A stretch of DNA of 64,000 bases from Firmicutes bacterium ZOR0006 (GTDB taxonomy: Bacteria; Bacillota_I; Bacilli_A; Culicoidibacterales; ZOR0006), in the NCBI GenBank assembly GCA_000798955.1, contig JTLC01000001.1:1-64000 (forward strand), read 5' to 3'. Shown here piece after piece: positions 17,953 through 20,439 of the stretch. A model generated the notes under the pieces. That model was not told the origin of the DNA and made no database searches. It worked only from the letters and a program-made list of their open reading frames with translations. Positions within the stretch are counted from its first letter, which is position 1. The number at the start of each line of letters is the position of its first letter. The translations under genes were made by a program, and so were the position numbers.

Positions 17953-17990
17953 ATTATCAATATTCTATTTTGCTTTTAGGTAAAAAACTT

Positions 17991-17996
17991 TATAAT
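17991..17996 (+). promoter_or_regulatory. Possible -10 element of the LCP gene
   Basis: A perfect TATAAT lies 40 bp after the yigZ stop and about 60 bp ahead of the LCP start. The -35 region is weak. Confidence 0.4.
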
Positions 17997-18054
17997 AAAA
18001 AAGTATGTAGTTTATTACTATTACATATCCCAACTCAAAAAGGAGGCGTTAATC

Positions 18055-19617
18055 ATCGCTGAACTACAAAATAATAAACCAAAAAAATCGCTTTTAAAGC
18101 GGGTGATCATTAGCCTCTTAAGTGTTTTACTTGTGATTGGCCTTGGTTACTCTGCTTTTATCGTTTATAAACTTTTCCAATCTGCCGATAAAATTATTGA
18201 TAGCAGTAAAGAGTCTACTGTCAATGTGACTACGGAACCATTCAATATTTTACTTATTGGTATGGATGAAGAGAACCTTGATAAAGGTCGCGCCGATTCT
18301 TTGAACTTGGCAACAATCAATCCCAAAACAGAGACAATTCAAATGACAAGTATCCCTCGCGATACCTATGTCGAAATTCCATGTAAAAATAACTTACGTG
18401 ATAAAATTACACATGCCCACGCTTATGGGGGAACTGACTGTACAATTGACACAGTTGAACAACTCTTCGATACAACTATTGATTTTTATGTAAAAGTCAA
18501 TTTTAATGGTTTCGTTGATGTCATCGATGCAATTGGTGGTGTTGAAATGAATGTTCCTGATTTACGTGAAGGCTTCTTGAGTTATATCCAAAGTCCAGAT
18601 GATCCAGGTCTTGTACCTTTTCCAGAGCAAATGGCTGTTTTCCAAGAAGGAAATGTCTGGTGTGAATCAGATAGTTCACGTGAACGTTATGCGATTTGTT
18701 TTGATACATTTGGTGTTCAACAAGTAAACGGCGAAGAAGCCCTCGCACTAGCACGAACTCGCCATTATGATTCAGATGGTGATCGTGGTAATCGTCAAAT
18801 GGAGGTCGTCAAAGCTGTTGCAAAAAAAATGGCGAGTCTAGAAGGTGTTTTTTCTCTCGACAAAGTTCTTGATGCTGCTGCCGATAATGTTGCCACTAAC
18901 ATTACTGTCAGTCAAATGACATCACTCGTTTCCTTAGGACAAAAGATTTTAGCTGCCCGTGGTGGCGATATCGATGGCTTTGCTTTCCGTACCCTCCAAA
19001 TTCAAGGTGAAGGCTTCATTTTTGAAGGTGAACTGAATGGACGTGCTTGGTATTCAATCCCCTATTTAGAAAGTATTGAATACTTACGTCAACAAATTAG
19101 TATGGCTCTTGGCCTCTCACCTGTTATTATGGCTGGTGAAGTGAGCTACAATGCAAATTTACAATACCCTCGTCCGGAGTATATGGCTAATTTAACACCG
19201 ATGTTCAGTGATATTGTTCCTTCCGCGGATGATTCTCCTGTGATTGAAAATGATCCCCTTGTCGAAACGGAAGTAAAAGAATTTACGTGTGAAGATGGTC
19301 AAACTTCTGTCAATGGTATTTGTCCAACGCCAATTGTACCGGAAGAATTTACGTGTGAAGATGGTCAAACCTCTGTCAATGGTATTTGTCCGGCGCCAAT
19401 TGTACCGGAAGAATTTACGTGTGAAGATGGTCAAACCTCTGTCAATGGTGTCTGTCCGGCACCAGTTGTACCAGAACCGGAAACATGTCCTGATGGTCAA
19501 GCACCAGTTAATGGTGTCTGTCCGGCACCGGTTGTACCAGAACCGGAAACATGTCCTGATGGTCAAGCACCAGTTGATGGTGTCTGCCCTTCGAACACTA
19601 AACCCGAAGAAGAATAA
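18055..19617 (+). CDS. LytR-CpsA-Psr (LCP) family cell-wall glycopolymer transferase with cysteine-rich C-terminal repeats
   Basis: LCP enzymes attach teichoic acid or capsule precursors to peptidoglycan outside the membrane. A basic N-terminus (KPKKSLLKR) leads into one transmembrane helix, then the LCP domain. That domain has RADSLNLATINPKT, SIPRDTYVEI, AYGG, ARTRHYDSDGDRGNRQ and other family motifs. The only conventional start is GTG 18103, which has no ribosome site and begins inside the helix. AAAGGAGG at 18039-18046 instead fits an ATC at 18055 (8 nt) or 18052, giving about 520 residues and the expected N-terminus. Two cysteine pairs sit inside the LCP domain, and ten more in five C-terminal 22-residue repeats. 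It ends at its own terminator. Confidence 0.85.
   Translation: MAELQNNKPKKSLLKRVIISLLSVLLVIGLGYSAFIVYKLFQSADKIIDSSKESTVNVTTEPFNILLIGMDEENLDKGRADSLNLATINPKTETIQMTSIPRDTYVEIPCKNNLRDKITHAHAYGGTDCTIDTVEQLFDTTIDFYVKVNFNGFVDVIDAIGGVEMNVPDLREGFLSYIQSPDDPGLVPFPEQMAVFQEGNVWCESDSSRERYAICFDTFGVQQVNGEEALALARTRHYDSDGDRGNRQMEVVKAVAKKMASLEGVFSLDKVLDAAADNVATNITVSQMTSLVSLGQKILAARGGDIDGFAFRTLQIQGEGFIFEGELNGRAWYSIPYLESIEYLRQQISMALGLSPVIMAGEVSYNANLQYPRPEYMANLTPMFSDIVPSADDSPVIENDPLVETEVKEFTCEDGQTSVNGICPTPIVPEEFTCEDGQTSVNGICPAPIVPEEFTCEDGQTSVNGVCPAPVVPEPETCPDGQAPVNGVCPAPVVPEPETCPDGQAPVDGVCPSNTKPEEE
19279..19608 (+). repeat. Five in-frame 66-bp tandem repeats in the LCP gene
   Basis: Five units with exact 66-bp period each encode 22 residues of the pattern C-x-DGQ-x2-V-[ND]-G-[IV]-C-P followed by a proline/valine/glutamate linker. 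Units 1-3 (CEDGQTSVNG) differ from units 4-5 (CPDGQAPVNG or CPDGQAPVDG), so two repeat subfamilies are present. Each contributes one cysteine pair spaced C-x(10)-C. Confidence 0.95.
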
Positions 19618-19625
19618 ATCATTTC

Positions 19626-19661
19626 AAAAACGGCTACTCCTATTGGAGATAGCCGTTTTTC
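19626..19661 (+). terminator. Terminator after the LCP gene
   Basis: A long hairpin (AAAAACGGCTA CTCC / GGAG A TAGCCGTTTTT) ends in T-rich sequence on the plus strand. Confidence 0.88.
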
Positions 19662-19708: not shown

Positions 19709-20425
19709 TTATTCAGTAGGTGTTTCCACATCAGTTGTCGTAAAAGCATCGATAACTGCTAGTGTGTCATCATGTTCAGTTGTAAAATCGACTAAGAACC
19801 AGGTATTTTGCTCTTCGTTATAAATCCAAGTGAATGTTCCTGTATTTGGCCATTCTTGTTCACTATCGATTGTCGCCGGGCTTTCTTCATAATCCCAATT
19901 CACAGCTACTTTATAGGCAGTGACTGTTTCATCAGTCATTTCATCTGTAAAATCATCTTCAAATGTATCGACTATTTCAATATTTGCAACAACTGGTAAC
20001 CCATCTTCACCATACGCTGTGACTAAGTCTTTGTAGTAAAAGTAAAGTGTTGTTTTGAGAAATTCAAGATAATCTTGACGACGTTCAGGGATAATATGTC
20101 CTGTCCCATGAAATTGAGTTTCTGGTGACAACGGCATATATGTAAAAATTTGTGCCACAGCATCAGTAGTTAATAGTTCCAATTCTTGATAATCACCAAC
20201 AATTCGCTGACTTTTTACTGCCGCTTGAGTCTCAGTTAATTTTGTTGATAACGATACCGAAATTTGCTCGGGTGTTTGTGTTGGTGTTTCCGTATTCAGT
20301 GTGTTTAATAAAAATACCGTGCCACCACCACCAATTGCTATCACAGCGAAAATTAAAATAATTAATAGCACTCGGAGCCCTTTTTTTTGCTTTCGAGCTT
20401 GCTTCCGTTCTTGTCGATTTGCCAT
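19709..20425 (-). CDS. Membrane-anchored hypothetical protein
   Basis: I do not recognise this protein of about 238 residues. It has a strongly basic cytoplasmic start (RQERKQARKQKKG), one transmembrane helix (about 18-40, ending in a run of glycines) and an acidic Thr/Glu-rich extracellular domain of about 195 residues without cysteines. The topology suggests an envelope protein. Two ATG codons follow GGAGGG; the second (20425, 5-nt spacing) is better placed than the first. It lies just downstream of mbl, separated by a terminator, and is convergent with the LCP gene, so a cell-wall role is possible but only by context. Confidence 0.75.
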   Translation of the reverse strand: MANRQERKQARKQKKGLRVLLIILIFAVIAIGGGGTVFLLNTLNTETPTQTPEQISVSLSTKLTETQAAVKSQRIVGDYQELELLTTDAVAQIFTYMPLSPETQFHGTGHIIPERRQDYLEFLKTTLYFYYKDLVTAYGEDGLPVVANIEIVDTFEDDFTDEMTDETVTAYKVAVNWDYEESPATIDSEQEWPNTGTFTWIYNEEQNTWFLVDFTTEHDDTLAVIDAFTTTDVETPTE

Positions 20426-20439
20426 CATTTCCCTCCTAT

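Follow-up and report, generated by a model that had tools for sequence, protein, structure and literature searches.

An LCP-family transferase of Firmicutes bacterium ZOR0006 bears a tail of putative one-disulfide hairpins that looks like a reusable surface spacer

The closest described counterparts of the enzyme presented here are TagT, TagU and TagV of Bacillus subtilis and Cps2A of Streptococcus pneumoniae. They share with it the N-terminal transmembrane helix, the LCP fold and family, the SIPRD motif and the arginine residues, but not the two cysteine pairs within the domain nor the tail of disulfide-hairpin repeats. Firmicutes are thought to use few disulfides outside the cell and to avoid exported cysteines (PMC6606811). 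In LcpA of Actinomyces oris, the disulfide C179-C365, which joins helix H2 to the C-terminus and depends on MdbA/VKOR, is needed for enzyme stability (PMC6381275). Our protein resembles LcpA in being, probably, stabilised by disulfides outside the cell; its domain pairs, however, occupy other positions, and searches for VKOR gave nothing in its genome or in that of a second species of the genus (G001). As for the tail, wall enzymes with PASTA or proline-rich tails likewise carry an extracytoplasmic C-terminal extension, but the unit described here is far smaller, and a Pfam search gave no PASTA match in the protein. BAD-1 of Blastomyces also bears tandem short one-disulfide loops on a surface protein; it differs by an unrelated sequence, a WxxWxxW motif, 41 copies and glycan binding (PMC3708853).

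The DNA analysed, hereafter the window, comprises 64,000 nucleotides of contig JTLC01000001.1. On its forward strand, the LCP gene (18055-19617; 520 amino acids plus stop codon) is a single open frame, with the repeat in its C-terminal part. The frame has no ATG, GTG or TTG upstream of a GTG at 18103. A perfect Shine-Dalgarno motif, AAGGAGG (18040-18046, forward strand), stands 5-8 nt ahead of two consecutive ATC codons (18052-18057); the motif is identical in G001, and the whole arrangement recurs there (AAGGAGGCGTTTATCATCGC). Since AAGGAGG lies at this distance and is kept in the genus, the gene probably starts at one of the two ATC codons (18052 or 18055), a start conserved in the genus, and not at GTG 18103. 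AUC starts are very rare. This start puts the positively charged KPKKSLLKR ahead of the transmembrane helix, as expected of an N-in, C-out protein. An ATG in G001 aligns with GTG 18103 of the window, and an internal start at these codons is conceivable, with no ribosome-binding site at the usual spacing there. A likely promoter -10 region (AAAAACTTTATAATAA; 17980-18000, forward strand) was read from the sequence 5' of the gene, in a stretch also kept in G001, and a likely intrinsic terminator (19630-19661; ACGGCTA ... TAGCCGT, then a T-run) lies between the LCP gene and a convergent one. The latter (19709-20428) adjoins mreB/mbl and encodes a cysteine-free protein of 239 aa that spans the membrane once and shares 48% identity with its G001 counterpart. 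The gene adjoining the LCP gene is presumably of the YigZ family. By gene names read from the translations, a 13-kb neighbourhood of the LCP gene is kept in G001 and the yigZ-LCP pair in a genome of the same order (G002).

That the product is an LCP enzyme, as a preliminary description made from the letters alone had proposed, is borne out by Pfam PF03816 (LytR_cpsA_psr; E 3.5e-38, 131.5 bits, cut-off 24.6), by the NCBIfam LCP domain TIGR00350 (116.5 bits, cut-off 62.3), by a sequence search of the PDB, where the best matches were structures of TagU, TagT and TagV, and by Foldseek, in which the AlphaFold2 model (mean pLDDT 67.6) matched Cps2A and TagV at E ~1e-22 with probability 1.00, and TagT/TagU as well. 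The protein passed none of the NCBIfam equivalogs TagU, LytR and CpsA; with 188.7 bits against TagU equivalog NF006897, under the cut-off of 441, it is by these scores an LCP enzyme that should not be named TagU. Among the residues invariant in an alignment of 11 proteins are D71, D81, R102, D103, R234 and R236, and the catalytic arginines and aspartates are thus conserved. Hydropathy predicts a single N-terminal transmembrane helix at about residues 17-39 (18103-18171, forward strand; model helix 11-47), with KPKKSLLKR on the cytoplasmic side, and the Pfam match, the model and Foldseek place the catalytic domain at residues 79-260 (18289-18834, forward strand). By family membership, the enzyme would transfer a lipid-linked glycopolymer onto peptidoglycan. 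The family search counted five LCP genes in this genome, the present one among them. A scan of a collection of genome contigs yielded only distant LCP proteins. A TGA seemingly inside an LCP paralogue at C40 was absent in the family search and reflected an alignment overrunning the frame. The LCP enzyme itself is ordinary; of interest is that various surface proteins of the class make use of the same one-disulfide hairpin.

Of the protein's 14 cysteines, four belong to the LCP region and the other ten to the tail, just as had been described (residues 94, 113, 187 and 199 counted from the GTG, plus ten). Numbered from ATC 18055, the four form core pair A (C110 and C129; 18382-18441) and core pair B (C203 and C215; 18661-18699), both on the forward strand. 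We counted them in 57 LCP homologues taken from fetched loci, allowing three alignment columns and ignoring kinship, a few rows being near-identical. Pair A was complete in 29 homologues, missing from 27 and reduced to a single cysteine in 1; for pair B the corresponding numbers were 24, 33 and 0. Both pairs were found together in 23 homologues, A only in 6 and B only in 1. That the cysteines of two independent pairs are nearly always kept or missing together speaks strongly for two disulfides in the domain; in the AlphaFold2 model, pair B lies in short strands at 202-204 and 214-216. As judged from the alignment, the core pairs are ancient within the class and occur independently of the tail. 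Contrary to what was first thought, they do not sit in inserts peculiar to this protein, their positions being common to many LCP proteins of the class. The expectation that LCP proteins of low-GC Gram-positives have few cysteines holds for the Bacillaceae homologues fetched, with 0 or 1, but not for this class, with both core pairs in 23 of the 57; against the disulfide-poor background of the Firmicutes, many LCP proteins of the class keep two core pairs. Three homologues (L023, L024 and L104, from G013, G035 and G024) retain pair A but have lost both cysteines of pair B, and are natural variants for disulfide tests.

From the domain, a low-confidence linker of residues ~356-408 (19120-19278, forward strand; pLDDT <50 over 356-411) leads to the repeats. 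Between 19279 and 19608, five in-register 66-bp units without indels (Tandem Repeats Finder score 344) encode 22 residues each, with one C-x10-C per unit. As delimited by sequence and by comparison of the units, they are, all on the forward strand, unit 1 (EFTCEDGQTSVNGICPTPIVPE; 19279-19344), unit 2 (EFTCEDGQTSVNGICPAPIVPE; 19345-19410), unit 3 (EFTCEDGQTSVNGVCPAPVVPE; 19411-19476), unit 4 (PETCPDGQAPVNGVCPAPVVPE; 19477-19542), which opens a second subtype, and unit 5 (PETCPDGQAPVDGVCPSNTKPE; 19543-19608), which has diverged at its 3' end. Units 1-3 carry EFTCEDGQTSVNG and units 4-5 PETCPDGQAPV[ND]G. Pairwise identity between units runs from 57.6% (units 1-3 against unit 5) to 95.5% (unit 1 against unit 2), neighbours being most alike. 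The repeats had been called exact; their number, length and cysteine pairs stand, while the exactness does not survive these identities. The stepwise duplication also proposed gains support, since two subtypes and a likeness greatest between neighbours are as expected from stepwise tandem duplication of the units. AlphaFold2, applied to the full-length protein, gave paired strands in two of the units (409-411/417-419 and 431-433/439-441), and a run on the tail alone gave a pLDDT of ~66-82 per block over the repeat region and a pTM of 0.23. This suggests, at the level of a model, local hairpins without a fixed overall arrangement, like beads on a string. The moderate confidence that AlphaFold2 assigns to the tail weighs somewhat against the spacer role argued below.

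The units follow the pattern C-x-[DE]-G-x3-[VIL]-[DN]-G-x-C, and we searched at the DNA level with a degenerate rendering of C-x-[DEG]-G-x3-[VILFM]-[DN]-G-x-C. Within the 1.97-Mb genome it matched 10 times, far beyond chance given a reversed control without a single match, and in two genes only: five times in the LCP gene and five times in that of a class A penicillin-binding protein (PBP), a peptidoglycan synthase of the PBP1a family. The latter (L046:1930-4746; G000:C46:5929-8745; PBP_1a_fam, 517 bits, over the cut-off) has its five hairpin units in a C-terminal tail. Its counterpart in G001 (L088) has four, with all eight cysteines kept despite diverged loops. Beyond the units, both proteins end in an aromatic, hydrophobic stretch similar in the two species (FWQQLNSIFYLTS in this genome, FFSPYLSNIFKY in G001), perhaps binding membrane or a partner.

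The LCP proteins of the relatives are built otherwise. In G001, the syntenic orthologue has no units and its cysteine-free tail ends in PEPSEPETTPEP; in G002, the LCP protein ends in SEPETPTEPETPTEPEKP, again without cysteines, and the PBPs are without units. The tails of both orthologues are of a Pro/Glu/Thr type, and the hairpin tail is, from this comparison of sequences, a separate and younger feature than the cysteine pairs of the domain. The sister species thus offers a natural swap of a hairpin tail for a Pro/Glu/Thr tail. PAPVVPEPET, the second half of the unit, is similar to the PEPET tails of these relatives, a likeness that suggests insertion of the hairpins into a Pro/Glu/Thr tail that was there before. 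A tandem repeat at the C-terminus, missing from the orthologues, might also be DNA that is prone to slippage and almost neutral, and is tolerated because the end is free. We regard this as highly improbable, for the cysteines and their spacing of 10 are kept in the diverged PBP units across two species and in unrelated proteins.

In a wider search over genomes of the class, 10 of 296 matched the pattern; a search set at the phylum likewise drew on genomes of this class only. Two of these matches (L074 and L079) were not in credible genes and are attributed to chance. At the loci read, units directly follow lipoprotein signal peptides (G074 and G129), precede the C-terminal anchors of secreted enzymes (G062, G074, G171 and G276, and G014 by protein match) or occupy free ends, and from these three settings the unit appears to be position-independent. 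Surface proteins of the class have thus repeatedly used a minimal one-disulfide hairpin, of 12 residues and two cysteines, as an extension. Two secreted glycosidase-like proteins, L077 (G276) and L084 (G074), carry eight and six tandem C-x10-C units, respectively, directly before a C-terminal membrane anchor.

These other proteins also bear on how the cysteines pair. All gaps between successive tail cysteines of the LCP protein are 10, inside and between units alike, so that the register cannot be read from it alone and intra-unit pairing rests on the other proteins. Among 23 units of these that were not chosen by the search pattern, the gap inside the unit is 10 in 22, while the gaps between units range from 3 to 9. 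Since the spacing is constant inside units and variable between them, the bond most likely lies within the unit, C-x2-G-x7-C, and PAPVVPEPET would accordingly be a linker. Together with the both-or-neither core pairs, the constant spacing supports the extracellular disulfides that the preliminary description had proposed. The cysteines might instead link molecules, for example the LCP and PBP1a tails with one another or with themselves, giving a redox-switched wall-synthesis complex. In this genome the unit is indeed found only in these two proteins, both predicted to reach into the same space; still, we find such links quite improbable, as a spacing that stays at 10 inside units speaks for bonds within each of them, single copies of the unit are also present in unrelated lipoproteins and glycosidases, and the LCP protein of the sister species has no unit while its PBP does. 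One might speculate that surface proteins of this low-GC class commonly span the wall with the stand-alone one-disulfide hairpin repeat, as an element so far without a name, and that the LCP and PBP1a tails, locked by their redox state, bring peptidoglycan synthesis and the attachment of glycopolymer into a common position, an idea that we put forward as improbable.

Likeness to a common known domain, a point that the preliminary description had raised against itself, is weak. The nearest Pfam model is the EB module PF01683 (cut-off 24.3), against which the LCP tail alone scored 23.9 and the whole LCP protein 11.9, and the PBP tail alone 27.8 and the whole PBP 18.0, no single stretch of the isolated tails passing. 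A single-sequence search of the tail against solved structures found nothing; a 31-unit profile against the PDB gave only marginal matches, to EGF-like domains of RIPR, thrombomodulin and the LDL receptor and to an insect metalloproteinase inhibitor. A further match of this profile to a designed PPR protein was false, inflated by repeats, and weak matches to the plasmid and phage proteins TraN, TspB and a tail lysozyme were taken to reflect a short Cys/Gly motif and not kinship. With two cysteines, the unit is no EGF-like domain, which has six, paired 1-3, 2-4 and 5-6. The cysteines of EGF domains that correspond to those of the unit are C5 and C6, bonded to each other. The EGF C5-C6 hairpin of thrombomodulin, Plasmodium RIPR and the LDL receptor, and likewise the EB module, shares with the unit a loop of the type C-x2-G-x(n)-G-x-C and weak profile matches; the unit resembles this hairpin standing by itself, by likeness of shape and not by demonstrated descent.

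The same likeness, and an acidic loop rich in Asp, Asn and Gly that resembles part of calcium-binding EGF domains, could be taken to mean that the units bind metal, either calcium through that loop or a transition metal through thiols. We consider this very improbable: only the C5-C6 hairpin is common with EGF, the calcium ligands of calcium-binding EGF domains lie largely outside that hairpin, and position 3 of the unit can be Ile or Thr in relatives.

The reading that we hold to be probable is that of a disulfide-stabilised LCP transferase with a five-hairpin, protease-resistant and length-adjustable spacer tail that extends into the wall. The LCP domain, stabilised by its two disulfides, would work at the outer face of the membrane, and the tail would leave it at the far end and point into the wall. 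A flexible linker after the domain would be followed by five 12-residue loops, in each of which a bond between the two cysteines would close a small beta-hairpin, with Pro/Glu-rich linkers of 10 residues between them. The disulfides of the spacer may resist proteolysis and limit collapse, its length could change through duplication of units, and it would do the job of the sister species' cysteine-free, Pro/Glu/Thr-rich tail. As a rough estimate, with a contour of ~4-5 nm per unit the five would span ~20-25 nm, about the thickness of a Gram-positive wall. We favour the spacer because the unit is small, position-independent, variable in number and swapped for Pro/Glu/Thr in orthologues, and because it has no conserved side chains beyond Cys, Gly, Asp/Asn and one aliphatic residue. 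The hairpin thus looks like a reusable structural spacer and not like a new kind of system.

The spacer role is argued from replaceability, which leaves some room for binding. It seems to us rather unlikely that the array is a binding module, with loops that touch wall glycans, a surface protein or the glycopolymer and so keep the enzyme close to its acceptor. Such a role is assumed for PASTA repeats elsewhere, and the presence of units on two wall-building enzymes of this genome would fit. So would the fungal BAD-1, whose 41 repeats are 17-residue disulfide loops, on a protein that binds heparin (PMC3708853). Against this stand a unit consensus (xCxDGxxLVDGxCV) with no conserved exposed aromatic or basic residue, a unit number that varies from 1 to 8, the occurrence of units on either side of unrelated domains, and a same-genus orthologue that does without them. 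For the initial suggestion that the tail binds wall, glycans or metals we found no positive evidence; a unit that can be replaced, and that is used irrespective of position, speaks for the spacer.

Disulfides outside the membrane call for an oxidant. Searches for VKOR, Thioredoxin_4 (DsbA/BdbD type) and DsbD/CcdA gave no match in this genome or in G001, and the oxidation route that the disulfides would need is to this extent incomplete. A DsbD match in G002 corresponded to a permease region, and the single Thioredoxin_4 match there has no visible export signal and looks cytoplasmic. The genome does encode a protein with a thioredoxin domain, a transmembrane helix at its N-terminus and a CSAC site (L137; G000:C36:41601-41909). 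Conserved in the order, this membrane-anchored protein has CSAC in G001 too and CSYC in G002 (further loci L135 and L136), and among NCBIfam models it matches the PedC/BrcD disulfide isomerase best (E 2.7e-12, below the cut-off). By these features it is likely the best candidate for the oxidant outside the membrane, and would provide a candidate extracytoplasmic oxidoreductase in two genomes where VKOR and DsbA-type partners were not found. Elsewhere in this genome, two adjacent and nearly identical thioredoxin genes lie in tandem (L129/L130; G000:C88:86227-86938).
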